The notes under the pieces were generated by a model. The model was not told the origin of the DNA. It did no database searches and saw only the letters and a list, made by a program, of their open reading frames with translations. 64,000 nt of DNA, taken from contig NZ_CP042582.1 in NCBI RefSeq assembly GCF_008728835.1, positions 1,302,001-1,366,000 of the forward strand, written 5' to 3'. Below, one piece after another: positions 19,605 to 59,214 of this stretch (position 1 is the stretch's first letter; each line of letters opens with the position of its first letter). Origin of the DNA: Hypericibacter adhaerens (GTDB lineage: Bacteria; Pseudomonadota; Alphaproteobacteria; Dongiales; Dongiaceae). The position numbers were made by a program, and so were the translations under genes.

Positions 19605-19618
19605 CATCGATTTCTGTC

Positions 19619-19720
19619 TCCTCCCCCGTCTTCGGGGGAGGATTAAGGAGGGGGCTGCTCGCTGTCAGAAACCGAGCAGCCCTCTCCCTGGCCCTCTCCC
19701 GCGAAGCGGGAGAGGGGATA
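19619..19720. repeat. Family 2 palindromic repeat
   Basis: Two hairpin arms, CTCCCCC-gtcttc-GGGGGAG and CTCTCCC-gcgaagc-GGGAGAG, flank a central GGGCTGCTCG / CGAGCAGCCC inverted repeat. It lies between two plus-strand genes, MocR and the HerA-like gene, and could end MocR transcription. Confidence 0.8.
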
Positions 19721-21521: not shown

Positions 21522-21540
21522 GTTGCCGGCAGCGAGTCTG

Positions 21541-21685
21541 CCCCCTCCCTGGCCCTCCCCCTGAACGGGGGAGGGGACAAGAGCTTCGTTTTCGCCGTCT
21601 TCCAATCGGGTAAGTTGGCCTCGCGCGATGCCTTCGTACCAGATCCCCTCCCCCGTTCAGGGGGAGGGCCAGGGAGGGGGCTGCG
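21541..21685. repeat. Family 2 palindromic repeat, long-spacer copy
   Basis: Two complementary outer arms (CCCCCTCCCTGGCCCTCCCC at 21542 and its complement ending near 21681) each form a hairpin around GAAC or GTTC, separated by about 60 bp. It fills most of the 188 bp gap between the HerA-like and TauE/SafE genes. Confidence 0.8.
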
Positions 21686-21709
21686 CGATCTCCATGCGCG
21701 AGTCACCCC

Positions 21710-22544: not shown

Positions 22545-23528
22545 CTACCAGAGCCACTTCTTCAGGGTCGCCAAGCCGCGGGGGAAGAACAGCATGACTG
22601 AAATCAGCAGCGCTCCGAACAGGATGAGGCGCCAAGCGCCGATCCCGCGCAGGGCTTCCTGGAACCCAACGATAAGGAAACCCGAGAATATCGGGCCGAA
22701 CAGCGTGCCTCGACCACCGAGATAGGTGACGGTGAGCACTTCGATCGTGCGCGAGACGCCGAACTCTGTGGGAGAGGGCGACAGGATCCCGATATAGTGG
22801 GCGTAGAAGGCGCCGACAATGCCGGTGAAGAACGACGCGATCGAGAAATTGATCAGCTTGTACTTCGTCGCGCTCAGCCCCAGGCTCTCGGCGGCCAGCT
22901 CGTCGTCGCGGATGGCCTTGAAGGCGCGCCCCGCATTCGAGTTCACCAACCACCAGCAGGCGAGAACGATGGCGGTGCCGATGACCAGCAGCGCGTAGTA
23001 GTAGGCATGGAGATTGGCCCGTGAAAAGTCGATCCCAAGCAGATCGGGAAAGGGCATGACGGTCAGCCCGAGCATACCGCGCGTTATCTCTGTGCTGTTG
23101 GCGATTGTCAGCCGGATCGTCTCCCCGACGAACCAGGTGAGCAGGCCGAGATAGAGGCCCTTCACCCTGAGGGCGATCAGGCCGGTGAAGAAGCCGAGCG
23201 CCATGCACAGGATGCCCCCGACCAACAGGCCCACCCACGGGTTGACCCCCATGAAGGAGGCGCCCAGAGCTGACGCATAAGACCCTGCGGCAATGAAGCC
23301 GGCATAGCCGAAGTTCGTGAGGCCGCAATAGCCGACCATGAGGTCGTAGATCGCGCCGAAGACGCCGAACATTAGCGCCGCGATCAGGATCGAGAGGATG
23401 AAATGGTCGCTCACGAACAGCGGGGCGAGTACCAGCGCGCCCAGGAGAACGGCCAGCTTGGCCGCCCGCATGGCTGGTGAACGCCATGCGCGCCCGAACG
23501 GCTGGAGGACGGCAGCGGCCTCGTTCAC
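22545..23528 (-). CDS. livM: Branched-chain-type ABC transporter permease LivM
   Basis: 327 residues with an N-terminal cytoplasmic stretch and about ten hydrophobic segments. It has the LivM signature region with G-Y-C-G-L-T-N-F-G-Y-A-G-F near 70 and the R-A-F-K-A-I-R-D-D-E-L-A-A loop near 205, which contacts the ATPases. The start is GTG 23528, overlapping the livH stop (GTGA). It is the last gene of the minus-strand operon that begins with the XRE-cupin regulator. Substrate identity comes only from context: the paired M24 enzymes suggest an amino-acid-like or zwitterionic compound, not necessarily leucine. Confidence 0.9.
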   Translation of the reverse strand: MNEAAAVLQPFGRAWRSPAMRAAKLAVLLGALVLAPLFVSDHFILSILIAALMFGVFGAIYDLMVGYCGLTNFGYAGFIAAGSYASALGASFMGVNPWVGLLVGGILCMALGFFTGLIALRVKGLYLGLLTWFVGETIRLTIANSTEITRGMLGLTVMPFPDLLGIDFSRANLHAYYYALLVIGTAIVLACWWLVNSNAGRAFKAIRDDELAAESLGLSATKYKLINFSIASFFTGIVGAFYAHYIGILSPSPTEFGVSRTIEVLTVTYLGGRGTLFGPIFSGFLIVGFQEALRGIGAWRLILFGALLISVMLFFPRGLATLKKWLW

Positions 23529-24430
23529 GGGCGAGCCCCTTGAACCGCGAAGAGCCCTTGCGGCCGGATGACCAGCACCAGAACCACGAGCGCGGCGGTC
23601 AGTACGTGCTGCCAGCCCGCCGCCAGGAAGAAGACGGCAAAGGCCTCGATGATGCCGAGCAAAAAGCCGCCGACGATCGCACCGGGCAGGTTCCCCAATC
23701 CACCGAGCACAACCACCGCGAAGCTCTTCATGGCAGGCAACATGCCGACGGTGGGATAAGCCGGAAAGATGGTGATAAGGAGAGCGCCGGAAATGCCTGC
23801 GAGCGACGCACCGATGCCGAAGGTGATCATGTAAATCTGACGGACGCTGATTCCGAGCGCCCGGGCCGCTTCCGCGTCCTGGCCCGTCGCGCGAATCGCC
23901 TTGCCGAGGGGGGTGTAGCGCACGAACAGCCATACGCCCGCGCCGACCACGAGGGTGGCGGCGAGAATCACAAGCCTGTCATAGCTCAGCGAGATGCCCA
24001 TGATGTCGAGGGAGCCCGGAATCATCTCCACCAAGCCCTGGCGGCGGCTGCCGACCAGCTCGGTCGCGAGGTTCTGAAACACCACCGTGAGCCCGATCGT
24101 GAGCACGAAGGCGTCGAGAAGCCAGCCGCGCCCCGATCGTCGCCTCAGCGGATCGATGAGGACCCGCTCGATGAGCATCCCGACCACGAAAAGCACGACA
24201 GCCGCCGCGGCAATTCCGGCAAGGATCGGAAACCCGAGGGAGGCCACGACGAAATACATGACGTAGGCGCCGATCATGAACAACTCGCCATGCGCGAAGT
24301 TCACGACGTTCAGGATTCCGAATATCAGCGACAACCCCACCGCCATCAGGGCATACATCGAGCCTCGCACCAGTCCTTGCGCCAGGAGTTCGAGGAGGAT
24401 GGACGGGTCCAGAAGAAGGCTGAAGTCCAT
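23525..24430 (-). CDS. livH: Branched-chain-type ABC transporter permease LivH
   Basis: 301 residues with about eight membrane segments. The family motif G-L-S-L-I-F-G-I-L-N-V-V-N-F-A-H-G-E is at 32-49, and the R-A-T-G-Q-D-A-E-A-A-R-A-L-G-I ATPase-contact loop is near 180. The ATG at 24430 shares a base with the livF stop (TGATG), so translation is coupled. It partners LivM to form the transmembrane channel of the cluster's importer. Confidence 0.92.
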   Translation of the reverse strand: MDFSLLLDPSILLELLAQGLVRGSMYALMAVGLSLIFGILNVVNFAHGELFMIGAYVMYFVVASLGFPILAGIAAAAVVLFVVGMLIERVLIDPLRRRSGRGWLLDAFVLTIGLTVVFQNLATELVGSRRQGLVEMIPGSLDIMGISLSYDRLVILAATLVVGAGVWLFVRYTPLGKAIRATGQDAEAARALGISVRQIYMITFGIGASLAGISGALLITIFPAYPTVGMLPAMKSFAVVVLGGLGNLPGAIVGGFLLGIIEAFAVFFLAAGWQHVLTAALVVLVLVIRPQGLFAVQGARP

Positions 24431-25140
24431 CAGATCCACTCCTTGATGATGTCGGCAAGGCGGTGCTTGAACTCCGCCGCCGGGCCGTGATGGCTGTTGG
24501 CTCCCATCTTCAGCACGTACACATAGTCGGCAATCTGGAGAGTCTTCCGGATGTTCTGGTCCACAAGCAGGATCAGGTAGCCGGCCTTCTTCAGCGCCCC
24601 GATCTGCTGATACACTTCCTCGACCAGTGACGGCATCAGGCCGACCGAGGGCTCGTCCAGCAGAAGCGTCCTGGGGTTTGTCATGGTGATGCGGGCGATC
24701 TCGAGCATGCGCTGCTCGCCGCCCGAGAGCGATCCAGCCCGCGCATTCCGCTTCTCCGCCATCCTCGGATACTGCTCGTAGGCGCGCGCCAGCGCGTCCA
24801 GCACGCGCCGCCGGTCGCGGCGGATCGTCCAGCAGCCGAGCTCGAGATTCTCGGCGACCGTCATGGAGGGAAAGACGCTCCGGCCCTGGATCAGATAAGC
24901 GACGCCCTCGGTCAGCATCTGTTCCGGCTCCAGACCGGTCACCGTCCGGCCGAAATGCTCGACTGTCCCGGATGCGGGCTTGAGATAGCCGAAGACCGCT
25001 CGCAGCAGGGTCGATTTGCCGGCGCCGTTGGGCCCGATGATCGTGGTCACCATGCCTTCTTCGGCGCGCAGGTTCACGCCGCTCAGGATCGGGACCTCGC
25101 GTGTGTAGCCCGCCGTCAGGCCGCTGATCGTGAGGCTCAT
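24430..25140 (-). CDS. livF: ABC transporter ATPase LivF
   Basis: 236 residues, the usual LivF length. Walker A is G-P-N-G-A-G-K-S near 36-43, the ABC signature is L-S-G-G-E-Q-R near 138, Walker B is T-L-L-L-D-E-P, and the switch-histidine position is occupied by Asp (L-V-D-Q-N) as in other LivF proteins. It pairs with LivG to energise uptake. Its start shares a base with the livG stop. Confidence 0.92.
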   Translation of the reverse strand: MSLTISGLTAGYTREVPILSGVNLRAEEGMVTTIIGPNGAGKSTLLRAVFGYLKPASGTVEHFGRTVTGLEPEQMLTEGVAYLIQGRSVFPSMTVAENLELGCWTIRRDRRRVLDALARAYEQYPRMAEKRNARAGSLSGGEQRMLEIARITMTNPRTLLLDEPSVGLMPSLVEEVYQQIGALKKAGYLILLVDQNIRKTLQIADYVYVLKMGANSHHGPAAEFKHRLADIIKEWI

Positions 25141-25877
25141 CAGACGGCCGCCTCCGCCTGGCCCAGATAGGCCTCGATGACCCGCGGATCATGCCGAACG
25201 CTCTCCGGTGTGCCGTCCGCGATTTCCTGGCCGGCGGCGAGAACCGTGAGGCGGGAACAGAGTTGCGACAGATGCGGCACTTCGTGGCTGATGAGCAGGA
25301 AAGTGAGGCCCTTCTCCTGACGCAGGGCGAGGATGACCTGGATCAGCTTCTCGCACAGGATTGGACTGATCCCGTTGAATGGCTCGTCGAGCAGGACCAG
25401 CGACGGCTCGATCATGAGAACCCGGGCGAATTCCAGCAGTTTCTGCTGCCCGCCCGATATCTCGATTGCCGGGCTCCGCGCGAGGTGGGAAAGCCGCACG
25501 AGATCGAGGAGTTGTTCCGCCTTGGCCCGTGCCGCGCGGCCAGACAATCCGAGCTCGATCGCCGGCACCAGCATGTTCTCGAGGACCGACATCTCCCGAA
25601 ACACGCGCGCGATCTGGAAGGTACGGCCGATCCCGGCCCTTGCGATGCGGGACATGGAGAGGCCGGTGATGTCGCGCCTCCGGAACGTGACCGTGCCGGC
25701 CGAAGGCGGATAGATGCCGTTGATCACATTGAAGAAAGTCGTCTTGCCGGCGCCGTTGGGACCGATGAGGCCGTGAACGCTCGCCTCTTCCACGGCGAGG
25801 TTGACACCGTTGAGCACGATACTGCCGCCGAACTGCTTCCTGAGGCCCCTGACCTCGAGTATGGGCGCCATGCTCAT
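25140..25877 (-). CDS. livG: ABC transporter ATPase LivG
   Basis: 245 residues from the ATG at 25877, which overlaps the stop of the upstream M24 gene (ATGA). Walker A is G-P-N-G-A-G-K-T with K45, the signature is I-S-G-G-Q-Q-K, and Walker B is L-V-L-L-D-E-P followed by F-N-G-I. LivG proteins usually end with a longer switch region that is present here. The coupling of an importer ATPase directly to an enzyme gene argues that the transported compound is the enzyme's substrate. Confidence 0.92.
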   Translation of the reverse strand: MSMAPILEVRGLRKQFGGSIVLNGVNLAVEEASVHGLIGPNGAGKTTFFNVINGIYPPSAGTVTFRRRDITGLSMSRIARAGIGRTFQIARVFREMSVLENMLVPAIELGLSGRAARAKAEQLLDLVRLSHLARSPAIEISGGQQKLLEFARVLMIEPSLVLLDEPFNGISPILCEKLIQVILALRQEKGLTFLLISHEVPHLSQLCSRLTVLAAGQEIADGTPESVRHDPRVIEAYLGQAEAAV

Positions 25878-27136
25878 CCGCCCAGCAGTTCGTCTTCGAA
25901 AGGAAAGTGCGAGAGGCATCGCACGCCCGTTCGCGTGACCAGAACCTGCTCCTCCAGCTTCACGCCTTCGTGGCCGCCCTCCGCGCCGATGAAGCTTTCA
26001 ATGCACAGCGTCATGTTCTCTTCGACGGTGCCGTCATAGCCGGCACTGTCCCAGTCGTAACGGTGATAGATCGCCGGATATTCGTCGCACATACCGATGC
26101 CGTGCATCAGCACCATGTAGCGGTTCCTGATATAGGGCTCCGGAATCCGCCAGGCCTTCTGCGACAGCTCGCGAAAGCTCACGCCGGGCCGCAGGAGCTC
26201 CATGTTGTGCTGGATCTCCTCGAACGCGAGCTTGTAGAGGTCGCGCTGAGCCGGGGTCGGTTTTCCGGGGCCACAATGGAAGGTCCGGGACATGTCGGCG
26301 CAGTAGCCCAGCGGACCGACCATGTCGGTATCGAATCCCACGAGCTCGCCGGGGCGCACCATCCGGTCGCTGGCTTCCTGCAGCCAGGGATTGAGGCGGT
26401 CGCCGGACGAGAGCAGCCGGCCCTCGATCCAGTCGCCGCCCATGGCGATGTTGGTCTGGTGCAGCAGGGACCAGAGCTCGTTCTCGGTGATGCCGGGGAC
26501 GAGCGCCGCCCGCATCTTGGCCGCACCGGCCTCCGCGACGGCGAGAGCCAGGTTCATGCAGAGAACTTCGTCGGGAGACTTTATCGAGCGGGCGCGTTCG
26601 ACGAAGCCCTGCGCCGGCACCAGGTCCAGATTCTGTTCGCGAAGCGCGGTCACCGCGCTCGACTGCCCGAAGTCCGTGGCAATTCTCGGCCCCGCGCCGC
26701 AGTGAGTGCGGACCAGCGCGCCCATTTCGTCAGCCCAACGCCGGATGGTTTCTTCCTCACGAGGTCCGGCGAAGAAGTGGCTGAGCGGCAGCGCGACACG
26801 AAACTCGGCGACCGTTTCCAGGCCTTCGGCGGTGGCGCGGTAGCTTTCCCCGTCGAACAGAACGACCGGGCCTTCCACGGGAACGAAGAGGTACCGCATC
26901 GGCACATGCATCTGGAAGACGGAGGCGTTCCGGCTTCCGGTCGCATAGCGGATGCTGATCGGGTCGACCAGGATGGCGGCAGCACAATCGCCGGCAGCTA
27001 GCTCCGCGCGTAGACGGCCGAGCCGATAGGAGCGGAGGCGCTTCAGGTCGAGCTGCGGCTCCGTATCTGTGAGGCGGTTGACAGGCAGGCGAAGCGCCGC
27101 CTCGGAGCCGTTCGGGGCCATGACTGCGTGAAACAT
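25874..27136 (-). CDS. DddP-like M24-fold enzyme (DMSP-lyase family or related lyase/peptidase)
   Basis: 420 residues in the pita-bread fold of M24 peptidases. The C-terminal half matches the DddP (dimethylsulfoniopropionate lyase) pattern: F-D-T-D with D269 and D271, C-A-D with D281, M-H-G-I-G-M-C-D with H345 and D351, C-I-E with E380, and K-L-E with E395. These spacings equal those I recall for the six iron ligands and the catalytic Asp of Ruegeria DddP, shifted by 26. G-G-D-W-I-E-x-R-L-L-S-S-G, which I also associate with that family, is present. The soil-like context makes DMSP uncertain; a different osmolyte is possible. ATG 27136 was chosen over GTG 27154 and ATG 27121; none has a strong ribosome binding site. 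It is coupled to livG. Confidence 0.8.
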   Translation of the reverse strand: MFHAVMAPNGSEAALRLPVNRLTDTEPQLDLKRLRSYRLGRLRAELAAGDCAAAILVDPISIRYATGSRNASVFQMHVPMRYLFVPVEGPVVLFDGESYRATAEGLETVAEFRVALPLSHFFAGPREEETIRRWADEMGALVRTHCGAGPRIATDFGQSSAVTALREQNLDLVPAQGFVERARSIKSPDEVLCMNLALAVAEAGAAKMRAALVPGITENELWSLLHQTNIAMGGDWIEGRLLSSGDRLNPWLQEASDRMVRPGELVGFDTDMVGPLGYCADMSRTFHCGPGKPTPAQRDLYKLAFEEIQHNMELLRPGVSFRELSQKAWRIPEPYIRNRYMVLMHGIGMCDEYPAIYHRYDWDSAGYDGTVEENMTLCIESFIGAEGGHEGVKLEEQVLVTRTGVRCLSHFPFEDELLGG

Positions 27137-27160
27137 GTGCTTGCTGCCTGCCACGGAGCG

Positions 27161-27760
27161 TCAGAAGGAAGGAGGCGTGATGACCCAGATCCACCGGACG
27201 GGGCGATCCCCGATGACTTTGGCGGAATGGGCCAACCGGCTCGAGAAGTAGATCGAATCGCCTTCCTCAAGGATGTAGGAGCGTCCGCCGACCGTGAGCT
27301 CGTAGGTACCCTCCAGGATGAAGCCGAACTCCTCGCCGTCGTGGGTCCAGGCTTCGCTTTCGCTGGTTTCGCCGGGCTGCATGACGCCCAGAATCACCTC
27401 GAGGCGGCCCTGGAGATCGGGCACCAACAGATAGTTCATCGACTTTGCGCCGGGGTACTTGAACGCCTTGCGACGATTCTTGCGGACGACGCGGGCCGGC
27501 TCGGCCGGTTCCGCCGGCCGGTCCCCATGCGGTTGGGGATCCGCACTGTCGGTGTCGGTTTCGTCATCGAAGAGCTGTGCCAGGGACGCGCCGAGTACGT
27601 CGCAAATGCGCTTGATCGACGCGATCGAGGGAGTCGTCTGATCGGACTCCACTTGGCTGATGAAGCTTCTCGACAGTGCCGCCCCCTGCGCGACCTGTGC
27701 CAACGACATGCCACGCTTCTTCCGCAGTTCGCGCAGCCGCGCCCCAAACTTCATGCTCAT
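27161..27760 (-). CDS. XRE-family regulator with C-terminal cupin domain
   Basis: 199 residues. An N-terminal helix-turn-helix of the Xre/Cro type (about 5-60, with S-L-A-Q-V-A-Q-G-A-A-L-S-R-S-F-I-S-Q-V) is followed by a charged linker and a cupin_2 domain (about 115-195, with H-D-G-E-E-F-G-F-I-L-E-G). Such regulators usually bind a small ligand in the cupin and control adjacent catabolic genes. The ATG at 27760 has GAGG five bases upstream; the longer open frame to 27952 is rejected because it crosses the promoter region. It heads the minus-strand operon and is divergent from the binding-protein gene. Confidence 0.9.
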   Translation of the reverse strand: MSMKFGARLRELRKKRGMSLAQVAQGAALSRSFISQVESDQTTPSIASIKRICDVLGASLAQLFDDETDTDSADPQPHGDRPAEPAEPARVVRKNRRKAFKYPGAKSMNYLLVPDLQGRLEVILGVMQPGETSESEAWTHDGEEFGFILEGTYELTVGGRSYILEEGDSIYFSSRLAHSAKVIGDRPVRWIWVITPPSF

Positions 27761-27951
27761 GGCCACCTCGATTTGCCTGTTCAGCCGAGGTGAACAATGT
27801 AAGCGCTGGCGCGTGGCCTCACTACCCTGGCGCGTAGCAGATTTTCCGATTCTACTGTTCTTCATAACTGAACTTTGTTCGATATAACTTGACAAATGTT
27901 CAGTCTGGTTGCAACATGCAATTCGTTTCTGGTTGCATGGGAGGCAAAACA
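27761..27951. promoter_or_regulatory. Divergent control region with repeated TGTTC elements and inverted repeats
   Basis: This 191 bp spacer is clearly more AT-rich than its surroundings. TGTTC occurs at 27778, 27856, 27876 and 27897; the last three are spaced 20-21 bp, or two helical turns. Inverted repeats include GTTCA-N7-TGAAC at 27779-27795, GAAC-TTT-GTTC at 27870-27880 and TTGCA-ACA-TGCAA at 27909-27921. A plus-strand TTGACA lies at 27889-27894 with a weak CAACAT at 27912. These are plausible operators for the XRE-cupin regulator, inferred from position only. Confidence 0.5.
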
Positions 27952-29268
27952 ATGAATGACCAGAGGGGCGGAAAAACGAATCCGCCGCGAATGAACCGCA
28001 GGGAGCTGCTGGCCGCTTCGGCCGCCGGCTTGGTTGCTCTGACCTTTTCAGCAGGCGTGAATTCGGCGCGGGCCGACGGGAAGCCGATCAAGATCGGCTG
28101 TCTTGCGCCCTTCACCGGACCCTCGAGCCGCACGGGCGAGAACATCCGCCAGGGCACCATGATGGCGATCGAGGATGCGCGCGCGGACGGGGAGATTCCC
28201 CTGACCGTGGACGGGGAGAAGCGCGATATCGAGATCGTTCTGGTCGACGACCAATCTGATCCGGAGAAGGGTGTTCTCGCTCTTCGCGATGCAGTCAGCC
28301 GCGAAGGGGTGGAATTCATGATCAATGGATGGCATTCGTCCGTTGCGCTCGCGACCATGGACGTCGAGGCGGATCTGGGCATCGTCCATCTGGGCAATCT
28401 CGGCGAATCGCAGTCCATCGCCGACAAGATCAATTCGGACGTGAACCGTTATGCCGGCTACTTCAAGAGCTATTCCTCGCCGGCCTCGTTCTCGGTCCTC
28501 TATGGAGCTCCGCTGAACTATTTCCGCGAGAAGGGGCTCTGGAAGCCGGCGAACCTGAAGGCCGCGGTCCTGGTTGAGGACACGGATTATGGCCGGAGCT
28601 GGGGCGAGGCACTGGTCACGAGCCTCAAATCGGCGGGCTATGAGGTGAGCGGCTTCGATGTGGTGCCCTTCGAGGAGACCGAGTTCTCACCCATCATCAC
28701 CAAGTATCGCGCGCAGCAGATTTCCCTGGTGATGACCACGATCACCGCGCCGGTAGGTGCCTCGAATTTCGTGAAGCAGGTCCGGACGCAGAAGCTGAAG
28801 GCGCTGCTCGTCAGCCACGGCCTGACCTGGTTCAGCGAGTGGCACGAGCTGACCGGAGAAGCCTCCGACTACAACGTCACCATGGACTCGCCGGCACCCC
28901 TGGCGCCCTGGCAGACCGAGTGGAACCAGCGTTTCAAGGCGAAGTATGGCGAGGATCCGAGCATCACCGCGTCGGGCCTGCCTTACGACTATACGCGGAT
29001 GGCCATCAAGGCGATCAATCAGGCCGGCACGCTCAAGCGGGAAGCGCTGATCGAGACGATCCGCTCGATGGAATACAAGGGCATCTGGAACTTGTACAAG
29101 TTCGCGAAAGAACCCGGCCCGAACGCGACCTCGCCCAACGAGGTCCTGACTGGTCCCTTCATGAAGGGGTTCTTCTTCCCGATGGTGCAGCTCATGGGGG
29201 GCGAGCGCAAGGTGATCTGGCCGCTCGAGTTTGCTTCCGCCGAGTTCGTCGCACCTCCCTGGCTCTGA
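27952..29268 (+). CDS. LivK-type ABC transporter substrate-binding protein, Tat-exported
   Basis: 438 residues. ATG 27952 is fixed by GGGAGG at 27939-27944, 7 bp upstream. The N-terminus carries a twin-arginine signal (M-N-R-R-E-L-L-A-A-S near 12-21) and a cleavage region ending S-A-R-A. The mature part is a periplasmic type I binding protein: I-G-C-L-A-P-F-T-G-P-S near 50, V-L-V-D-D-Q-S-D-P near 95 and a late Y-D-Y-T-R-M-A-I-K helix. It belongs to the urea/short-chain amide and branched-chain family. It should feed the LivGFHM importer encoded divergently. A strong hairpin follows the stop. Confidence 0.9.
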   Translation: MNDQRGGKTNPPRMNRRELLAASAAGLVALTFSAGVNSARADGKPIKIGCLAPFTGPSSRTGENIRQGTMMAIEDARADGEIPLTVDGEKRDIEIVLVDDQSDPEKGVLALRDAVSREGVEFMINGWHSSVALATMDVEADLGIVHLGNLGESQSIADKINSDVNRYAGYFKSYSSPASFSVLYGAPLNYFREKGLWKPANLKAAVLVEDTDYGRSWGEALVTSLKSAGYEVSGFDVVPFEETEFSPIITKYRAQQISLVMTTITAPVGASNFVKQVRTQKLKALLVSHGLTWFSEWHELTGEASDYNVTMDSPAPLAPWQTEWNQRFKAKYGEDPSITASGLPYDYTRMAIKAINQAGTLKREALIETIRSMEYKGIWNLYKFAKEPGPNATSPNEVLTGPFMKGFFFPMVQLMGGERKVIWPLEFASAEFVAPPWL

Positions 29269-29273
29269 ACGAC

Positions 29274-29306
29274 AAGGGCGCCGCTGGTTCTCGGCGGCGC
29301 CCTTTC
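29274..29306 (+). terminator. Intrinsic terminator after the binding-protein gene
   Basis: A perfect 11 bp stem (AAGGGCGCCGC at 29274-29284, complement at 29294-29304) with a 9-base loop, ending in TTT. It starts 6 bp after the stop codon. The short T-tract suggests partial read-through into the M24 genes. Confidence 0.7.
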
Positions 29307-29372
29307 CAAGATCGAGATTTCCACGCTCGCCTCTTCCCCTGAGATGAGGCGAAGCGCGAATGCAGGGTTGAA

Positions 29373-30536
29373 ATGGCACGAGAATATCTCGCTTTCGGCC
29401 AAGCCGAATACCGCGACAGGATGGCGCGCGCGCGGGCGACGATGCGGGAAAACGGGCTCGACGCGGTCATCATCGTCTCGCCCGAATCGCTCTACTATCT
29501 CTCCGGTTACGATTCATGGACCTCGGCGGTTAATCCGCAGGGGCTGGTGGTGAGTTCGGGCGAAGACAACCCGACCCTCCTCATCCGGAACTACGACTAC
29601 GCGCTCGCGCGGGAGTCGACCTTCGTCGAGGATATCCGGACCTTCAGGCTTGGGATCGACAACCCGGCGGGGATGCTCGCGGATATCGTCGGGAAGAAGA
29701 GACCGGGCTATGCCCGCGTCGGCGTCGATCTGCAATCTCCCGCCGTGACCGGCCGGTTCGCGCTGGATCTGGCCGATGCGCTCGGCGGCGGCGCGCTGGT
29801 CGACGCGACCGATCTTCTGGGCGAGTTGCGATTGATCAAATCGTCGCCCGAGATCGCCTATATCCGGCAGGCCGCCGGCTATGCCGCGGCGGGGCTGGCC
29901 GAGACGAAGCGGGCCTTGCGGGCGGGACGAACCGAGATCGCCGTGGCCGCAGACGTCGAGGCCGCTGTCCGGAAGGCGGGGAGCGACTACTGGGCCATTC
30001 CGATGGAATTCACCACCGGCCCTCGAACGGCGGCGGGCCATGGGGCGCCTCGCCCGCGGGTCATCGGAGCGGGAGACCTGGCGCATTTCGAGTTTGCGGG
30101 CGTTGCGGCCCGCTATCACGTCACGGCCATGACGACCATGGCCGTGACGAGCGCCAGCAAGCGCATTCGCGACCTTCATCGGATCTGTGCGGAGTCCGTC
30201 ACGGCGGGCGTGGCCGCCGTCAAGGTGGGGGCTCCCGCCGCGGCGGCCGAGATCGCGTCGTTGAGGCCGCTGGAGCGCGAAGGGATCGACGGTTTCGCGA
30301 TCGCGCGGTTCGGATACGGCATCGGCGTCGCCTATCCGCCGATCTGGCTCGAGACGCTGCAGATATCCCGCACTTCGGCGCATGTCCTGCAGGCGGGGAT
30401 GGTTTTCGTGCTCCATACGACGCTCACGCTTCCCGACGAGAACCTCGGTTTCATGCAAGGCGGCACCTATCTGCTGACCGAGACCGGCGTTCAGATGCTT
30501 GTCGGCGATGGCGACAGCCCTTTGGTCACCGTGTGA
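29373..30536 (+). CDS. Metal-ligand-less M24-fold hydrolase (ectoine hydrolase/creatinase-like), copy 1
   Basis: 387 residues: an N-terminal creatinase-type domain (1-160) and a pita-bread domain (165-385). All five usual metal positions are changed. The first Asp is E240, the second Asp is T251, the His of H-G-x-G is Y315, and the two Glu positions are H348 and G363. A central H223 in A-G-H-G-A-P remains, at the region of the catalytic His of metal-free creatinase. The F-G-Y-G-I-G-V-x-Y-P-P motif resembles ectoine hydrolase DoeA. It likely hydrolyses a C-N bond in a small amide or cyclic amidine; the exact substrate is unknown. Confidence 0.8.
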   Translation: MAREYLAFGQAEYRDRMARARATMRENGLDAVIIVSPESLYYLSGYDSWTSAVNPQGLVVSSGEDNPTLLIRNYDYALARESTFVEDIRTFRLGIDNPAGMLADIVGKKRPGYARVGVDLQSPAVTGRFALDLADALGGGALVDATDLLGELRLIKSSPEIAYIRQAAGYAAAGLAETKRALRAGRTEIAVAADVEAAVRKAGSDYWAIPMEFTTGPRTAAGHGAPRPRVIGAGDLAHFEFAGVAARYHVTAMTTMAVTSASKRIRDLHRICAESVTAGVAAVKVGAPAAAAEIASLRPLEREGIDGFAIARFGYGIGVAYPPIWLETLQISRTSAHVLQAGMVFVLHTTLTLPDENLGFMQGGTYLLTETGVQMLVGDGDSPLVTV

Positions 30537-30584
30537 CGGGCTTGCTCCGTTCGGGTGGCATTCCTCTTGGATGGGAGAAGGATC

Positions 30585-31754
30585 GTGGCTGAGGTACCGT
30601 TCGCTGCATTTTCCGAAACGGAGCATCGCGCGCGCCTGGCACGCGCCCGGACGGCGCTCGGCGAGGCAGAATTCGACGGCTGCATCGTTATCGCACCGGA
30701 GAACCTTTTCTATCTCGCCGGCTACGATTCCATCTCTTCATATGTCGGTCCGCAGGCGCTGGTTTTCAGCGCCAAGGGCGGTGGTGATCCGACGCTCCTG
30801 GTACGTGACTTGGACTTGCCCTTGGTGCGAGAGACGAGCTGGATCAAGGACGTCCGCACCTACCATCTCAACCAGGACGATGTGGGTGCGCTTCTCGCGG
30901 CCATCGTGCAGGAAAAGGGGCCCGGCAAGGGAAACTGGGGGCTCGAAGTCAATTCCTATGCGGTGACGGCGGGCTACGCGAAGCTGCTGGGCGACGCCCT
31001 TCCCGCGCTGCGCTTCAAGGATGTGGGGCCCCTCCTGAGCCGGCTTCAATACATCAAGTCGGCGGCAGAAATTGCCTATGTCCGGGAGGCGGCCGGTTAC
31101 GCCAATGTCGGCGTCGCGGCGGCCCGCGAGGCGCTTCGGGCGGGAATGAAGGAAACCGCCCTTTGTGCCGCAGTGGAGGGCGCCGTGCGCAGGGCAGGGA
31201 GCGACTACCCGGCGATTCCGACCGAATGTGCCAGCGGCAGCCGCTCGGCCGGCGGGCATGCGACGGCGATGCCGAAGATCATCGGCCCCAACGAGCTCGT
31301 GCATCTCGAGTTCGCCGGTGTAGCGCGCCGCTATCACAGCGTTTCCATGCTGACGATGGCTACGGGCGATCCGGGGCCGCGCGCGCGATGGCTTTACGGC
31401 GTGGCGTTGGAATCGCTGCAGAAGGGTCTGGAGGCCTGCCGGCCGGGCGCCAGCGTCGTCGATATCGACAACGCATCCCTCGCGCCCATCATCAAGGCGG
31501 GCATAGGTCATGCCGCGCAGATGCGATTCGGGGTTGGGATCGGGATCGGCTATCCGCCGGTATGGGTGGGCACGTTCCAGATCGATCGGTTCTCCGACGG
31601 CGTGCTACACCCCGGTATGGTCTTCTATGTGCATGCTTGGCTGTCTTTGGCGGATGAAAGGCTGGGCGTCATGCTGGGCGGCAGCTATCTCGTCGGCGAG
31701 ACCGCCGTGGAGCAATTGTCGGGAGCGGGTCCGGTCGAGTTGTTCACCGCCTAA
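30585..31754 (+). CDS. Metal-ligand-less M24-fold hydrolase (ectoine hydrolase/creatinase-like), copy 2
   Basis: 389 residues, a paralogue of the preceding gene. I chose GTG 30585 because GGGAGAAGG lies just upstream and because the resulting N-terminus aligns with copy 1; an in-frame GTG at 30555 would add ten unmatched residues. It keeps Y-L-A-G-Y-D-S near 45, G-G-H-A-T near 220 and F-G-V-G-I-G-I-G-Y-P-P. Metal positions are again E, S, V, H and G. The two copies probably form a heteromer or act on successive intermediates. The genes lie 48 bp apart and should share a transcript. Confidence 0.8.
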   Translation: MAEVPFAAFSETEHRARLARARTALGEAEFDGCIVIAPENLFYLAGYDSISSYVGPQALVFSAKGGGDPTLLVRDLDLPLVRETSWIKDVRTYHLNQDDVGALLAAIVQEKGPGKGNWGLEVNSYAVTAGYAKLLGDALPALRFKDVGPLLSRLQYIKSAAEIAYVREAAGYANVGVAAAREALRAGMKETALCAAVEGAVRRAGSDYPAIPTECASGSRSAGGHATAMPKIIGPNELVHLEFAGVARRYHSVSMLTMATGDPGPRARWLYGVALESLQKGLEACRPGASVVDIDNASLAPIIKAGIGHAAQMRFGVGIGIGYPPVWVGTFQIDRFSDGVLHPGMVFYVHAWLSLADERLGVMLGGSYLVGETAVEQLSGAGPVELFTA

Positions 31755-31820: not shown

Positions 31821-33008
31821 TCAAAGCTCCAGGAGTCGCGCCGTGTGGCGGGCGATGACCAGTTCCTCGTCGGTCGGGACGGTATAGGCGGCGGTCCTGG
31901 CCTTGGTGCGGGTCAGCAGGGGGCCGCCGCGCGCGTTGGCCGCTTCGTCGAGTTCGATCCCGAGCCAGGCGAGGTCGCGGCAGACGCGGGCGCGGATCGG
32001 CGCCGCGTTCTCGCCGACGCCGCCGGTGAAGACCAGCGCGTCGAGCCCGCCCAACGCCGCGGCGAGCGAGCCGGTGTGGCGGACGATGGCATAGCAATAT
32101 TGCTCGATGGCGGCGGCGGCGCGCGGCTCGGGGCTCTCCAGCAGCGTCTTCATGTCGGCGCTGAAGCCGGAGAGGCCCAGGAGGCCGCTCTTGTTGTAGA
32201 GCAGGTCCTCGAGCGCCTTGAGGTCCATCTTCTCCTCGCGGATGAGATGGAGGAGGGCGCCGGGATCGAGACTGCCGATGCGCGTGCCCATCACGATGCC
32301 GTCGAGCGTGGAGAAACCCATGGTGGTGGCGTGGCCCTTGCCGTCGAGCACGGCCGCCATGCTCGCGCCATTGCCGAGATGGGCGATGACGAGGCGCTTC
32401 GGCAGCGTTCCGCCGAGAAGCTGGCGCAGACGGCCGGTCACGTATTCGTAGGAAAGGCCGTGGAAACCGTAGCGGCGCATGCCCTTGGCTTCATAGGCGG
32501 CGGGCAGGCCGAGGCTGCGGGCCGTCGCCGGCATGAAGGCGTGGAAGGCGGTGTCGAAGCAGGCGACCTGCGGCAGTGCCGGATGCTGCGCCATCAGCGC
32601 GCGGATCGCGGCGACATTGTGCGGCTGGTGATGCGGTGCCAGCGGCTCCAGCGCCGAGAGCGCGTCGAGGATTTCGGGCGTGATGCGCTCGGGGGCCGCG
32701 AAGCGCGTGCCGCCATGGACGACGCGGTGGCCGGCGCCGGCGAGGTCCTGGCCCAGACCGTTGGTCGCCAGCCAATCGGGCAGGAGCAGCAGCGCGTCGG
32801 CGTGGTTGCGGATGGCGGCGAGCGTTGCCGCGTCCGGCGATGGGAGCGGATGGCCGTCGGCGGATTTCGCCGAAAAGGCGAGGGCGCGGCCGATGCCGGC
32901 GAACTGGCCGCGGGCGAGTGGTGCGGGATCGGCGCCGGCGCTGGGCCGGTAGAGCGCGAATTTGAGGCTCGAGGAGCCGGCGTTGAGGATGAGGAGCGGG
33001 GCGGTCAT
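31821..33008 (-). CDS. ackA: Acetate kinase
   Basis: 395 residues, usual length. It interconverts acetyl phosphate + ADP and acetate + ATP in the cytoplasm. Typical motifs are L-N-A-G-S-S-S-L-K-F near 8-17, H-R-V-V-H-G-G near 93, Y-G-F-H-G-L-S-Y near 180 and H-L-G-N-G-A-S near 207. ATG 33008 starts the conserved region; the frame extends 12 codons upstream without conserved sequence. It lies downstream of xsc, separated by a family 2 repeat. Xsc makes acetyl phosphate, so AckA can harvest ATP from it. Confidence 0.95.
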   Translation of the reverse strand: MTAPLLILNAGSSSLKFALYRPSAGADPAPLARGQFAGIGRALAFSAKSADGHPLPSPDAATLAAIRNHADALLLLPDWLATNGLGQDLAGAGHRVVHGGTRFAAPERITPEILDALSALEPLAPHHQPHNVAAIRALMAQHPALPQVACFDTAFHAFMPATARSLGLPAAYEAKGMRRYGFHGLSYEYVTGRLRQLLGGTLPKRLVIAHLGNGASMAAVLDGKGHATTMGFSTLDGIVMGTRIGSLDPGALLHLIREEKMDLKALEDLLYNKSGLLGLSGFSADMKTLLESPEPRAAAAIEQYCYAIVRHTGSLAAALGGLDALVFTGGVGENAAPIRARVCRDLAWLGIELDEAANARGGPLLTRTKARTAAYTVPTDEELVIARHTARLLEL

Positions 33009-33044
33009 GGAGACATGTTCCCCGCGAAACCACGCTTGCGGCAA

Positions 33045-33184
33045 CCCCTCCCCCTACCCCCTCCCGCAAGGGGAGGGGGCTGGAATTTTGCCAGCTCGCC
33101 TTTTCTCTTTCGGCTTACGAAGGGACGCGGGAACCCCCAACCGTCTCGCCCCCTCCCCTTGCGGGAGGGGGTAGGGGGAGGGGA
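33045..33184. repeat. Family 2 palindromic repeat between ackA and xsc
   Basis: Two outer arms, CCCCTCCCCCTACCCCCTCC starting near 33045 and the complement ending near 33183, each with an internal hairpin around CGCAAG or CTTGCG, are separated by about 65 bp. This undisturbed copy serves as the reference for the interrupted copy around the IS110 element. Confidence 0.85.
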
Positions 33185-33208
33185 GTTGCCGCTCGGTGCG
33201 AGAGGCAA

Positions 33209-36255
<3,047 letters not shown>

Positions 36256-36272
36256 CTGGCAACACAGTCGCT

Positions 36273-36387
36273 CTCCCGCAAGGGGAGGGGGCGAGATGTT
36301 TGATGTGTTCGCCCCCTCCTTGGTGGGAGAGACGTGATGTTTGTTGTTCTAGCCCCCTCCCCTTGCGGGAGGGGGTAGGGGGAGGGA
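36273..36387. repeat. Right remnant and partner arms of the split family 2 repeat
   Basis: CTCCCGCAAGGGGAGGGGGC continues the repeat interrupted at 35134. A further arm ending GGGGGTAGGGGGAGGG near 36386 completes the inverted structure. It fills the gap between the IS and the MocR gene. Confidence 0.75.
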
Positions 36388-36420
36388 AAGCGCGGTGCAC
36401 GAAGTCGCGCCGCGCCAACA

Positions 36421-37920
36421 CTATCCCATCTGCTTGCGCAGGATCTCGCCCAGGAGCTTGATCCCCGGCTCGATCTTCTCGAGCGCGATCGAGGAGAAGC
36501 CCAAGCGGAAGAAGCGGCGCGGCGCGTCCTGGGCCTGGAAATGCCAGTCGCCGCGCTCGATCAGGATGCCCTGCTTGGCAGCGGCGGCCTCGAGCAGCCG
36601 CGCGTCGAGCCCGGGCGGCCCCTCCACCCAATAGGCCGTGCCGCCCTGGCTCTGCTGCCAGCGGCATTCGGGCAGGTGGCGCGTCAGCGCCTCGCCCATC
36701 GCCTTCCAGCGATCCTTGTAGATCTGGCTGAGGCGGCGCAGCAGCGCGTCGTGATGGCCGTCGGCGAGGAAGAGCGCGATGGTGCGCTGGTTGTTGGCCG
36801 GCGGATGGCGCAGCATCAGGCGCCGCAGCGCACGCGCCTCGCGGATGAAGGGCTCGGGGCCCACCATGTAGCCGAGCCGCAGGCCCGGGGCGAGGGTCTT
36901 GGAGAGGCTCGCCACGAAGATCACGCGGCCGCTGCGATCGAGCGACTTCAGGGCCGGCGAGGGCGTGCCCTGATGGTTGATCTCGCTCTCGTAATCGTCC
37001 TCGACCACGACGATGTCGTTGGCCGCGGCCGACTGCAGCAGGGCGCGCCTGCGGGCCAGCGACATGGTGGCGGTGGTGGGGAACTGGTGGCTCGGCGTCG
37101 CATAGACATAATCGCAAGCGGCGAGGCGCTCATCGACCACCAGCCCCTCGCGGTCGATCGCGAGCGGGACCAGCTCGGCGCCGCGCAGGCTGAAGATGTT
37201 GCGCGCATCGACATAGCCCGGATCCTCGATGCCGACGCGCGTCCCGGCATCGATCAGCAGGCTCGCGATCAGGTAGAGCGCCTGCTGCGCGCCCACGGTG
37301 ACGAGGATCTCGTCATTGCCGACCCGCACGCCGCGCCGCGGCAGGAGGCGGGTGCGGATCTGCTCGACCAGGAGCGGATCGTCTTCGGTGAAGAGGTCGC
37401 GCGACCATTCCTTGACCGACCCGCGGCCGAGCGCCTGGCGGGAGCAGTCGCGCCAGGCCGCGATCGGGAACAGTGCCGGGTCGACCTGGCCATAGATGAA
37501 AGGGAAGGGGTAGTCCTGCCAGTTGCGTGGCTTCTCGATATTGTGCTGTGCCGTCGGGCGGACGCGAAACCTGTCCGCCCAGTCCACCCCGGCTGGCCGT
37601 TCCTTGGCATTTGCACCGGTTGCGGTTTCCCGCGCCGCCGATACCACCGGTGGCTGGGCGCGTCCCGAGAGCACATCGGGCGCCACGAAATAGCCGCTGC
37701 GCTGGCGGGCGACGAGAAAACCTTCCTCGACCAGATCCTGATAGGCGAGCGCCACCGTGTTGCGGGCGACATTGAGCGTCTGCGCCATCTTCCGGCAGGA
37801 GGGGAGCGCCGTACCGGCCGGAATCTGGCCTTCCAGGATCGCGTCGACCAGCATGCGCCGGAGCTGCGCCTGGAGCGTGGTCTTGCCGTCCGGCTCGAAA
37901 TGGAAAAGCTGTTCCCGCAT
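36421..37920 (-). CDS. MocR-type GntR regulator (TauR/PdxR-like)
   Basis: 499 residues. A GntR winged helix (about 12-80, with L-P-S-C-R-K-M-A-Q-T-L-N-V-A-R-N-T-V) is fused to a fold-type I aminotransferase-like domain (about 135-495). The PLP lysine is K341 in S-L-S-K-T-L-A-P-G-L-R-L-G-Y, and D-D-Y-E-S-E is near 308. It is divergent from the importer/aminotransferase operon and, apart from the IS, directly upstream of xsc. In other alphaproteobacteria TauR, a MocR protein, controls tpa and xsc, so a taurine or amine sensor role fits. That role is inference. Confidence 0.88.
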   Translation of the reverse strand: MREQLFHFEPDGKTTLQAQLRRMLVDAILEGQIPAGTALPSCRKMAQTLNVARNTVALAYQDLVEEGFLVARQRSGYFVAPDVLSGRAQPPVVSAARETATGANAKERPAGVDWADRFRVRPTAQHNIEKPRNWQDYPFPFIYGQVDPALFPIAAWRDCSRQALGRGSVKEWSRDLFTEDDPLLVEQIRTRLLPRRGVRVGNDEILVTVGAQQALYLIASLLIDAGTRVGIEDPGYVDARNIFSLRGAELVPLAIDREGLVVDERLAACDYVYATPSHQFPTTATMSLARRRALLQSAAANDIVVVEDDYESEINHQGTPSPALKSLDRSGRVIFVASLSKTLAPGLRLGYMVGPEPFIREARALRRLMLRHPPANNQRTIALFLADGHHDALLRRLSQIYKDRWKAMGEALTRHLPECRWQQSQGGTAYWVEGPPGLDARLLEAAAAKQGILIERGDWHFQAQDAPRRFFRLGFSSIALEKIEPGIKLLGEILRKQMG

Positions 37921-37991
37921 TCACGCTCATTCCGGGCCGTCGGAAGCCGTGGCCGGCGAAATCTCCTTGACTGGCTCTGTTTCACTAGTCG

Positions 37992-38002
37992 ATTGTAACA
38001 AT
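37992..38002. promoter_or_regulatory. Palindrome in the MocR/binding-protein divergent spacer
   Basis: ATTGTAACAAT is a perfect 5+1+5 palindrome in the AT-rich middle of the 273 bp divergent region (37921-38193). It is 72 bp upstream of the MocR start and about 190 bp upstream of the binding-protein start. It may be an operator for the MocR protein; only position and symmetry support this. No other gene is seen in this spacer. Confidence 0.35.
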
Positions 38003-38193
38003 ACGATCAATTGGCGAAGAATCCCCAGCTTTTCTGCCGATTTCAACCCGGAAGCCGGTCACGTGGATGTCATAAATCCGTCGTGTGCCGGCGCTACAAC
38101 GAGCGGTCCCCCCCGGGAGAATCGAATCAGAACCAAAAGCCAAGGGGGCGCGCGGTACAGGCTTCATACACATCCAAGACAGGGAGTTCTCTG

Positions 38194-39360
38194 ATGACTG
38201 CCAAGAAACCGGCCTCGTCGGCTGAGTTGACGCTGAGCGCTGCACGCCGCTTCAGCCGCCGCACGATGCTGAAGACCGCCACCGCGGCGGGTGCCGCGCT
38301 GGCCGTTGGCCCGTGGCTGGTGAAGGATGCATTCTCATCCTCGGGCGAGCTCAATCTTCTCAACTGGTCGGACGAATTGCCCGACCCGGTCGTTCCGGAC
38401 TTCACGAAGAAGACCGGCATCAAGGTAAACACGACGCCCTTCTCGCAGAACGAGGAGCAGATCAACAAGCTCCAGGCGACCGGCGGCGAAGGCTTCGACC
38501 TCTATCAGCCGACACGCGATCGCCAGCCGCAGTTCAAGGATCTGGGGCTGACCGCGGCGCTCGATCCGAAGAAGCTCGATAACAGCCACGTCCTGCCCTC
38601 CTTCATCGAAGCGACGAAGATCTGGGAGTGGGATGGCGGTCTGCATTGGCTGCCGCATTGCTGGGGCAGCGAGGCGATCTCCTGGCGCACCGACCTGACC
38701 AAGCTCGAATACAAGACGCTGAGCTACGGCACGCTCTGGAACGACGAATACAAGGGCAAGGTGCAGGGCCGTCCGCATTCGCTGCTGCTCGGCATCGGCC
38801 TCTGGATGGACGCGACGGGCAAGCTGCCCTCCAACCGCATGGCCGACGCCTTCAAGGATCCGGACACCTTCAAGAAGATCTACGACGTGATCCTGCCCTT
38901 CGCGATCGAACACAAGCCCTGGATCAAGCAGTTCTGGGACAGCGCCGACAACACCAAGTCCGGCCTCCTGGAGAACGGCGTGGTGATCGGCCAGACCTGG
39001 GACGGCCCCGCGCTCAGCCTCAAGAAGGACGGCAAGCCCGTCAGCTACATGGCGCCGCAGGAAGGCGCCATCGCCTGGATCGACGGCTGGTCGCTCTCCT
39101 CGGGCGCCAAGAACGTCGACCAGGCCTATGAGTGGCTGAACTACGTCCACACGCCGGAAGCTTCGGCCAAGGTGGCGGACGGTTCGGGCTACAACCCGAT
39201 CGCCAAGGGCTCCGACGTCCTCCTGTCGGACGCCGCGAAGAAGAACTTCCAGGAAGCCTATCCGGAAGACGCGCTCGACAAGCTCTGGAACCGCATCCCC
39301 GAGCCGTCCTGGTTCGGCGATCTGCGCGGCGAGTATGCGGAGAAATACAAGGCGTCTTGA
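38194..39360 (+). CDS. PotD/PotF-type ABC substrate-binding protein, Tat-exported
   Basis: 388 residues from ATG 38194 with AGGGAG at 38181-38186. A classic Tat signal, S-R-R-T-M-L-K near 21-27, is followed by an Ala-rich hydrophobic stretch. The mature domain is a spermidine/putrescine-type periplasmic binding protein, with L-N-L-L-N-W-S-D near 50 and W-D-G-P-A-L-S-L in the second lobe. Such proteins bind polyamines, but also GABA, taurine-like or opine-like amines. It heads the pot-like operon. A hairpin after the stop probably keeps its mRNA more abundant than the downstream genes. Confidence 0.88.
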   Translation: MTAKKPASSAELTLSAARRFSRRTMLKTATAAGAALAVGPWLVKDAFSSSGELNLLNWSDELPDPVVPDFTKKTGIKVNTTPFSQNEEQINKLQATGGEGFDLYQPTRDRQPQFKDLGLTAALDPKKLDNSHVLPSFIEATKIWEWDGGLHWLPHCWGSEAISWRTDLTKLEYKTLSYGTLWNDEYKGKVQGRPHSLLLGIGLWMDATGKLPSNRMADAFKDPDTFKKIYDVILPFAIEHKPWIKQFWDSADNTKSGLLENGVVIGQTWDGPALSLKKDGKPVSYMAPQEGAIAWIDGWSLSSGAKNVDQAYEWLNYVHTPEASAKVADGSGYNPIAKGSDVLLSDAAKKNFQEAYPEDALDKLWNRIPEPSWFGDLRGEYAEKYKAS

Positions 39361-39386
39361 TCGGCTGAGCCTCCAGTGACCATGCT

Positions 39387-39415
39387 GCATCCCGGCCCCG
39401 CTTGGGCCGGGATGC
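39387..39415 (+). terminator. Hairpin after the binding-protein gene (partial terminator or mRNA stabiliser)
   Basis: A perfect 12 bp stem (GCATCCCGGCCC and complement) with a 5-base loop lies 26 bp after the stop codon. No T-tract follows. Hairpins here in ABC operons usually raise binding-protein expression relative to the downstream genes. Confidence 0.6.
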
Positions 39416-39570
39416 TTGCATTGGACCAGGGCTGCCTTGCGTCCGCGCGAGAGCCTCGCGCCGCCCCATGCAGCCCTGCAGGTTGCAGCGGACCGGTCCA
39501 CGTCGGTGGAGCGGCCGTCGGGCATGCCTGAGGCCGGTTCCGAGAGTCAGGGAAGGGGAAGTCTCGATCC

Positions 39571-42537: not shown

Positions 42538-42594
42538 GGCGGCGCGGAGGGGCGGCGAAAGACCTCCTTGGCTTCATCCCGGCACTCTTCATCC

Positions 42595-42675
42595 GTAATC
42601 CCCGCGAAAGCGGGGATCCATCCCGGCCCAGCGCGCCGAGCTTAGTGATGGACCCCCCGCTTTCGCGGGGGTGAC
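42595..42675. repeat. Family 1 dispersed palindromic repeat, copy 2
   Basis: 81 bp with complementary arms, each holding a CCCCGC-GAAA-GCGGGG or CTTT hairpin. It sits in the 279 bp gap between the permease gene and the aminotransferase gene, both on the plus strand. I see no other feature in that gap. Confidence 0.85.
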
Positions 42676-42816
42676 GGCTGGCGCGGGACTGACGCTCGGC
42701 GGGGCCTGCCCCCTCCAATTGCGCCGCCCTGTCCCTATAGGGGCTTGATCCTGGCCGATAGGATGGCCGTCAGTGCCGAAAGGCCTCTCCCATCCTTCCA
42801 GACCCAGGGTCCCGTC

Positions 42817-44127: not shown

Positions 44128-44192
44128 TCCTCGGGCGCAGCAGTTCCTCACCCCCAACCCTCTTCGCGTTCCCAGCCACCACCGCCCGGCTT

Positions 44193-44272
44193 GTCATCCC
44201 CGCGAAAGCGGGGATCCATTTCGAGGCTTGGTGACCTGGATCAGGATGGATCCCCGCTTTCGCGGGGATGAC
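44193..44272. repeat. Family 1 dispersed palindromic repeat, copy 3
   Basis: 80 bp; arms GTCATCCCCGCGAAAGCGGG and complement, nearly perfect over 27 bp. It lies between the aminotransferase and TauE/SafE genes, both plus strand. It is the most symmetrical of the three copies. Confidence 0.88.
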
Positions 44273-44322
44273 GTAGAGGAAGGCGCGGGGTGAGGGCTCA
44301 AACATAGGTCGCTTCCCATTCC

Positions 44323-45099: not shown

Positions 45100-45108
45100 C
45101 GGAGTGGC

Positions 45109-59110: not shown

Positions 59111-59214
59111 TCCCTTCCCCCGGAACGGGGGAAGGTTAGGAAGGGGGCTGCGCGGTATCCGATACCGAGTAGCCCCCTCCTTGGTCCTCCCCCGCAGGGC
59201 GGGGGAGGAGACAA
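59111..59214. repeat. Family 2 palindromic repeat between TfoX-like gene and fumC
   Basis: Two hairpin arms, CCTTCCCCC-ggaac-GGGGGAAGG and CCTCCCCCGC-agg-GCGGGGGAGG, surround a GGTATC/GATACC inverted repeat. It occupies most of the 223 bp gap, which holds no other feature I can see. Confidence 0.8.

Follow-up and report, generated by a model that had tools for sequence, protein, structure and literature searches.

What is the role of a locus in which three enzymes of the M24 fold are encoded beside one Liv-type importer? This question is raised by positions 22545 to 31754 of a 64,000-nucleotide stretch of Hypericibacter adhaerens DNA (contig NZ_CP042582.1, positions 1,302,001 to 1,366,000), which is hereafter called the window and supplies the coordinates used below. 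In the present study, we propose, at a little short of an even chance, that the locus is a nine-gene catabolic island whose products import a small zwitterionic nitrogen compound, most likely a betaine or an N-substituted cyclic imino acid, and break it down in steps. The island is most simply understood as a self-contained module for uptake and degradation, both kinds of its M24 enzymes coming from families tied to small nitrogen zwitterions.

Gene calls and domain assignments gave nine genes, not the ten of the initial annotation, and confirmed that two divergent units share one control region (27767..27951). The leftward unit, on the minus strand, reads regulator, DddP-like enzyme, LivG, LivF, LivH and LivM; the rightward unit, on the plus strand, reads periplasmic binding protein (SBP), M24A and M24B. 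The XRE-cupin regulator (27161..27766) carries HTH_31/HTH_3 and Cupin_2 domains, and its candidate starts are GTG 27766, ATG 27760 and ATG 27754. Within the leftward operon, four of the five junctions overlap. The DddP-like gene and livG share an ATGA overlap (GGATGAGC), which places the livG start most likely at 25877 rather than at the longest reading-frame start of 25919, and the following junctions are TGATG (livG/livF), TGATG (livF/livH) and GTGA (livH/livM). The translational coupling claimed earlier for the whole unit was read at these four junctions, but six nucleotides separate the regulator stop from the GTG start of the DddP-like gene. The control region holds short direct and inverted repeats (TGTTCTTCATAACT/TGTTCGATATAACT; TCTGGTTGCA in two copies; the inverted pair ACTGAACTTT/AATGTTCAGT), which are possible operators and short enough to occur by chance. 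A sigma-70 consensus scan of this region gave no match, and promoter and terminator scans of the locus returned nothing informative.

The composition of the nine genes differed from that of their surroundings. Mean GC content at third codon positions (GC3) was 0.823, compared with 0.896 (standard deviation 0.028) in the 30 other window genes longer than 200 codons (Mann-Whitney p 2.5e-5), and total GC was 0.640 compared with 0.687 in those 30 genes (p 9e-5). The codon score was also lower than in the other window genes (p 0.001); this score was partly trained on the latter, whereas GC and GC3 are independent of that training. We then compared the site with G014, the sole genome of the same genus among 17 genomes of the order. 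The flanking TauE-like gene and ackA-xsc were collinear with the window at 81-93% identity, and the TauE-like/ackA junction of G014 held 4.1 kb with four other called genes and no nucleotide match to the island. Because the G014 site is collinear but lacks the island, the nine-gene block was gained or lost as a whole. The deviating composition, together with the lack of the block at the syntenic site in this one relative, marks a genomic island, which was probably acquired horizontally. Its edges coincide with the nine genes, so one unit is likely.

The domain search assigned Peptidase_M24 and Creatinase_N to all three enzymes. The whole genome of 5.87 Mb yields just 17 PF00557 matches and three of them lie within 5.9 kb here, so the three genes form a real cluster. 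To that extent the earlier view that three M24 enzymes beside one importer are unusual was correct, but multi-M24 clusters also occur at other loci (L056, L055, L164 and L144). At L164 (G101:C7:630000-649900), a span of about 15 kb contains five DddP-like genes as well as MR_MLE, MTTB and PutA genes, which makes an M24 cluster richer than that of the island.

M24A (29373..30536) and M24B (30555..31754; its true start may be GTG 30585, behind GGGAGAAGG) are 47% identical to each other. They were aligned with two metal-bearing references, RdDddP and the DddP-like protein of the window, and the own-genome rows L001-L008 were disregarded. The ligand positions D/D/H/E/E read E/A/F/H/G in M24A and E/S/F/H/G in M24B, while the DddP-like protein (25874..27154) retained all five of these common M24 ligands plus a sixth, DddP-specific Asp. 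The proposal of two metal-free M24 enzymes and one DddP-like enzyme was therefore upheld. In sequence searches, EutD/DoeA gave the best matches to M24A and M24B, and prolidases came next. For M24B, an AlphaFold2 model was built from a 40-row alignment (predicted local distance difference test score 93.3). Its best structural match was EutD (Z 45.9, root-mean-square deviation 1.9 over 380 residues, 28% identity), and creatinase (Z 41.9) and prolidase (Z 41.8) tied behind it. By score, M24A and M24B are not EutD; they appear to use the EutD scaffold, which for M24A is read from domains, sequence matches and the alignment and for M24B also from the predicted fold.

The nearness of EutD/DoeA to both proteins in sequence, and of EutD to the M24B model in fold, would suit ectoine or hydroxyectoine utilisation with a Liv-type importer. 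We regard this as very improbable, as the EutD and DoeA models scored only 143 and 125 bits for M24A and 160 and 137 bits for M24B against curated cut-offs of 575 and 613, the structural match shares 28% identity, and domain and family scans of the nine genes detected neither an EutE-type deacetylase nor an EnuR-type regulator. The second place of prolidases in sequence, their fold tie with creatinase and the public annotation of relatives as 'Xaa-Pro peptidase family' are instead what would be expected if N-acyl amino acids or short peptides containing proline were taken up and hydrolysed in the ordinary way by enzymes of the prolidase type. That explanation is also unlikely in our judgement: M24A and M24B lack the metallopeptidase ligands and match EutD best, and among solved chains the DddP-like protein is far nearer to DddP (E 3e-78) than to any peptidase (best E 5e-12).

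The DddP-like protein also has equivalents of Tyr366 and Asp377 of DddP, residues that are named together with the metal ligands in PMC4108388. The six ligands were kept in 45 of 50 aligned non-DddP relatives, and Tyr366 and Asp377 were both present in 43 of the 50; the relatives keeping them include those from Rieske and MttB clusters. Because these residues are common to most non-DddP relatives, they do not mark a DMSP (dimethylsulfoniopropionate) lyase. Against the NCBIfam DddP model, the window protein scored 330 bits and missed the curated cut-off of 600. In a 45-row unrooted tree, a long stem led to a single clade of the three DddP rows (100/100); the window protein belonged to a separate 14-row set (100/97). 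When four EutD-like outgroup rows were added (FastTree), the DddP clade was recovered (1.0) with the window protein outside it, in a weakly supported set of eight rows (0.32). In this tree the 45 family rows stood together (0.78), DddP and L067 formed a set (0.999) within a 39-row set (1.0), and six non-DddP rows fell outside that larger set. The trees were built without fungal DddP, and the root of the second is not firm because the EutD-like outgroup is distant. By clade and by curated cut-off, the window protein is not DddP. The protein branching next to the DMSP lyase DddP (L067:18551-19888) is encoded directly after a Rieske gene.

An operon for uptake and cleavage of DMSP (or dimethylsulfoxonium propionate, DMSOP), with DddP as the lyase, would account for the conserved ligands and the Tyr366/Asp377 equivalents. 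We consider it highly unlikely, since most non-DddP relatives have the same residues, the window protein lies outside the DddP clade with and without the outgroup, domain and family scans revealed no acrylate-handling gene among the nine, and EutD-like enzymes, of which there are two here, are not known to take part in DMSP cleavage. The initial annotation had named DMSP, ectoine and creatine as known substrates of the relatives; with the DddP and EutD cut-offs widely missed and the DddP-like protein outside the DddP clade, none of the three is supported as the substrate here.

We further examined the neighbourhoods of DddP-like relatives, which occur in 76 of 385 alphaproteobacterial genomes (E 1e-80) and on 178 plasmid records (E 1e-60). 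Fifteen plasmid stretches, a non-random sample of best hits plus an even spread over the 178 records, were opened and 14 were annotated, one of which is DddP itself. All 14 were positive, with a Rieske oxygenase alpha gene in eight, an MttB-family gene in five and a glycine-betaine/proline importer in one, compared with none of eight controls taken 200 kb away on eight of the same plasmid records. The Rieske, reductase and DddP-like genes were consecutive on one strand in four plasmid stretches. In Rhizobium TAL182, the Rieske protein encoded next to the DddP-like gene matched 3vca/4qup (E 1e-101), which we take to be the stachydrine demethylase Stc2. On chromosomes, a Rieske, MttB, dimethylglycine-dehydrogenase-type or MLE homologue lay within 8 kb at 9 of 21 DddP-like loci, four of which themselves supplied the reference proteins, compared with 1 of 13 loci lacking a DddP-like gene, where the homologue was a weak one; the association is weaker than on plasmids. 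The host genome has nine MTTB and four proline-racemase-family matches above cut-off, which also speaks for the betaine or imino-acid reading. The role proposed earlier, uptake and stepwise cleavage of a small zwitterion, therefore gained from the unity of the island and from the neighbourhoods of its relatives, but less from the chromosomal ones.

The relatives of M24A and M24B were examined in the same way. The M24A subfamily was found in 8 of the 385 genomes at E 1e-80, the own genome included. Seven of these eight also carried a DddP-like gene (E 1e-80), compared with 69 of the 377 others (Fisher p 6e-5), and six of seven did so when the own genome was removed (p 3e-4); this association is weak because the positives come from few families. 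A scan of 84,980 species genomes, built from the alignment and limited to two peptide patterns, yielded 70 M24A/B-type loci, and a pattern for M24A alone gave none. We counted neighbours within 6 kb at 30 named loci of the M24A/B subfamily with at least 40% identity to M24A and more than 5 kb on each side. An ATP-binding cassette (ABC) importer gene was near 13 of them, a flavin adenine dinucleotide (FAD) oxidase near nine and another M24 gene near six. A DddP-like neighbour was counted at two of the 30 and is certain only at L074; the count at L085 is probably a match on the M24A/B-like gene itself.

Orthologues of M24B with 62-65% identity were found at seven rhizobial loci, in Ensifer aridi, Mesorhizobium erdmanii, two M. 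loti, Microvirga VF16, R. etli bv. mimosae and Mesorhizobium NZP2077, where the gene caller was retrained for each locus; the Microvirga VF16 record is unannotated. A Pot-type importer gene lay within 6 kb in all seven, a serine hydrolase was near in six and a DadA-type FAD oxidase in five. At R. etli Mim1, a second M24 gene and a gene of the proline-racemase family are also present. An eighth relative of M24B in rhizobia, a fragment in Mesorhizobium hawassense (L127), showed no tested neighbour within 6 kb. In the own genome, the M24A/B paralogue at 3.30 Mb is likewise accompanied by an FAD oxidase and a Pot-type importer, as is its counterpart in G014. A metagenome-assembled contig of the same family (SSEL01000023.1; L056 and L074 denote the same locus) carries a 75% orthologue of M24B behind a Rieske oxygenase, in a row of four M24 genes; a DddP-like gene is also present, and this is the sole other neighbourhood with both M24B and a DddP-like gene that we saw. 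The DddP-like copy there lacks the equivalents of Tyr366 and Asp377. The contig further has a flavin mononucleotide (FMN) oxidoreductase and, by eye, an acyl-CoA synthetase and an enoyl-CoA hydratase. On a Mesorhizobium plasmid, an M24B relative and a DddP-like gene are 36 kb apart.

The importer is of the Liv type in its parts, with two BPD_transp_2 permeases (LivM, 22545..23528, GTG start; LivH, 23525..24430), two ABC_tran ATPases (LivF, 24430..25140; LivG, 25140..25877, also with BCA_ABC_TP_C) and a type-I SBP of the Peripla_BP_6 family (27952..29268). All subunits missed the curated Liv cut-offs (LivG 210 of 362 bits, LivF 169 of 441, LivH 151 of 379, LivM 159 of 366 and SBP 70 of 477), and the Urt (urea) cut-offs were likewise missed. 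Judged by these scores, it would not be a branched-chain amino acid importer in the narrow sense. The nearest solved structures to the SBP are 3h5l and then 3ip5. The GDG of 3ip5 reads SHG in the island protein and GHG in both copies of its relative in G032, which puts His at the acid position. In Leu/Ile/Val-binding proteins, the acid has a role with the alpha-amino-acid ligand; the substitution, read from the sequence, would thus mildly argue against an ordinary alpha-amino-acid ligand. A search of the 385 genomes with the SBP (E 1e-45) found the own genome and G032 only. The orthologous importer of G032 has two tandem SBPs (58% and 55% identity), LivM (62%), LivH (63%), LivF (61%) and LivG (60%), and at E 1e-80 this genome gave no match to M24A or the DddP-like protein. 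In G032, the importer adjoins Pot-type importer and AGCS-type symporter genes, named by eye (L171, G032:C90:20000-39900).

Several observations weigh against a dedicated pathway for a betaine-like compound. The plasmid sample is dominated by rhizobia, and some of its members are close to one another. Of the 21 chromosomal DddP-like loci, 12 were negative, among them two of three paralogues in the own genome. Within 8 kb of its DddP-like gene, the window holds no Rieske, MttB or methyl-oxidising homologue, and an N-methylated substrate would therefore need demethylation elsewhere. The nearest relative of the DddP-like protein (G178, 62%; L066, G178:C33:1-14000) has no such neighbours either; instead, a formamidase-like gene (named by eye) is found at a distance of about 1 kb, with a distantly related Liv/Urt-type importer (26-35% identity) on the other strand. 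Among the 30 named M24A/B loci, 17 had no ABC importer gene nearby and none had Liv permeases within 6 kb. For the rhizobial blocks, a hydroxyproline pathway was considered and set aside as no more than a hint, since the 'hydroxyproline-like' genes miss the curated equivalog cut-offs. In G032, no M24 gene accompanies the importer. The initial annotation had suggested looking across genomes for conserved co-occurrence of LivGFHM with all three M24 genes, and such a search found none: the complete set was seen in this genome and in no other genome searched. According to that annotation, the pathway idea would fail if the homologues were never found together; this holds for the full set, but parts do co-occur, as M24B and a DddP-like gene do at L056/L074.

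The importer standing alone in G032, M24B standing with Pot importers in rhizobia and the full set occurring only here could also mean that the nine genes travel together without forming one pathway, a Liv operon and unrelated M24 genes having been joined by chance. This is rather unlikely in our view. The shared divergent control region, the overlaps between the DddP-like gene and livGFHM and the common composition argue against it, as does, within few families, the excess of DddP-like genes in genomes of the M24A subfamily.

We return to the reading that we favour, a catabolic island for a small zwitterionic nitrogen compound. By analogy with the relatives, the substrate may be placed with moderate confidence among betaines or substituted cyclic imino acids of the proline/hydroxyproline type. 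The compound would be taken up by the Liv-family importer with its own binding protein, and the XRE-cupin regulator would act on both transcription units at the divergent region that they share. The two metal-free EutD-type hydrolases and the metal-dependent DddP-family enzyme would cleave the compound stepwise in the cytoplasm, the three presumably acting in a single pathway. The proposal draws on the chemistry of EutD, creatinase and prolidase. M24A and M24B would hydrolyse a non-peptide C-N bond in the fashion of EutD. The DddP-like enzyme might bind the carboxylate at its dinuclear metal site, where the equivalents of Asp377 and Tyr366 would take a proton and the onium or amine part would be expelled or hydrolysed.

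A bolder version is possible, although we lean against it: the island would represent an undescribed pathway in which three non-peptidase enzymes of the M24 fold act on one betaine-like or cyclic imino-acid compound, the DddP family would serve largely in betaine catabolism with the marine DMSP lyases as one derived branch, and many DddP-like proteins labelled 'Xaa-Pro peptidases' would act on nitrogen betaines by cleaving their onium groups. In a literature search, which left most subscription journals uncovered, no paper was found that places an M24 or DddP-like gene in a betaine cluster or describes DMSP lyase as a branch of a partly betaine-associated M24 family. A word search of PMC12478193 gave no mention of M24, DddP or peptidase. 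If the betaine reading is true, the annotation of DddP-like proteins as 'Xaa-Pro peptidase' misleads. DddP is nested among relatives that stand repeatedly beside Rieske or MttB genes on plasmids, which makes it a testable question what the relatives of DMSP lyase cleave, and the island, compact and equipped with its own importer, is suited to identifying one such substrate.

Other features of the window lie outside the island. The adjoining region 31821-46038 carries taurine-type genes, namely ackA and an Xsc-like thiamine pyrophosphate (TPP) enzyme (named by eye) and, by Pfam, a GntR/aminotransferase regulator, an SBP_bac_8 importer, a class III aminotransferase and TauE. A link between the island and these genes was considered and rejected, because G014 keeps ackA and xsc without the island. 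An IS110-family transposase (35332-36255) lies between the TPP enzyme and the taurine-type regulator and, like the island, has a low codon score. GC-rich repeats, each about 100-140 bp long and ending in palindromes, are interspersed at 19617-19718, 21540-21687, 33045-33184, 36273-36386 and 59126-59211. They resemble repetitive extragenic palindromes (REP) or miniature inverted-repeat transposable elements (MITE) and have dozens of matches in the congener G014.

Finally, we compared the island with known systems. Ectoine utilisation clusters (EutD/DoeA), in their usual make-up, likewise place a metal-free EutD-type M24 hydrolase beside an importer and supply the best sequence and fold match; the island differs in its Liv-type importer, its two divergent EutD-like copies and its DddP-like enzyme, and its nine genes include no EutE or EnuR. 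The DMSP lyase DddP shares the M24 fold family, the six ligands and the Tyr366/Asp377 equivalents with the island enzyme, which differs by lying outside the DddP clade, missing the cut-off and standing in another neighbourhood. The Rieske- or MttB-type betaine clusters of rhizobia and Burkholderiales also have a DddP-family M24 gene, and four of them a glycine-betaine-type importer, but they carry demethylation genes, which are absent near the gene of the island, and their DddP-like proteins show 42-46% identity. The rhizobial blocks of Pot importer, M24B and FAD oxidase resemble the island in having an M24B orthologue (62-65%) near an importer and, in R. etli Mim1, a second M24 gene; they differ by their Pot-type importer, FAD oxidase, serine hydrolase, DHDPS-family and aldehyde dehydrogenase genes, which the island lacks. 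Operons of an importer plus an EutD-type enzyme and DddP-like genes in Rieske/MttB clusters are thus known kinds, and what is new in the island is their combination.

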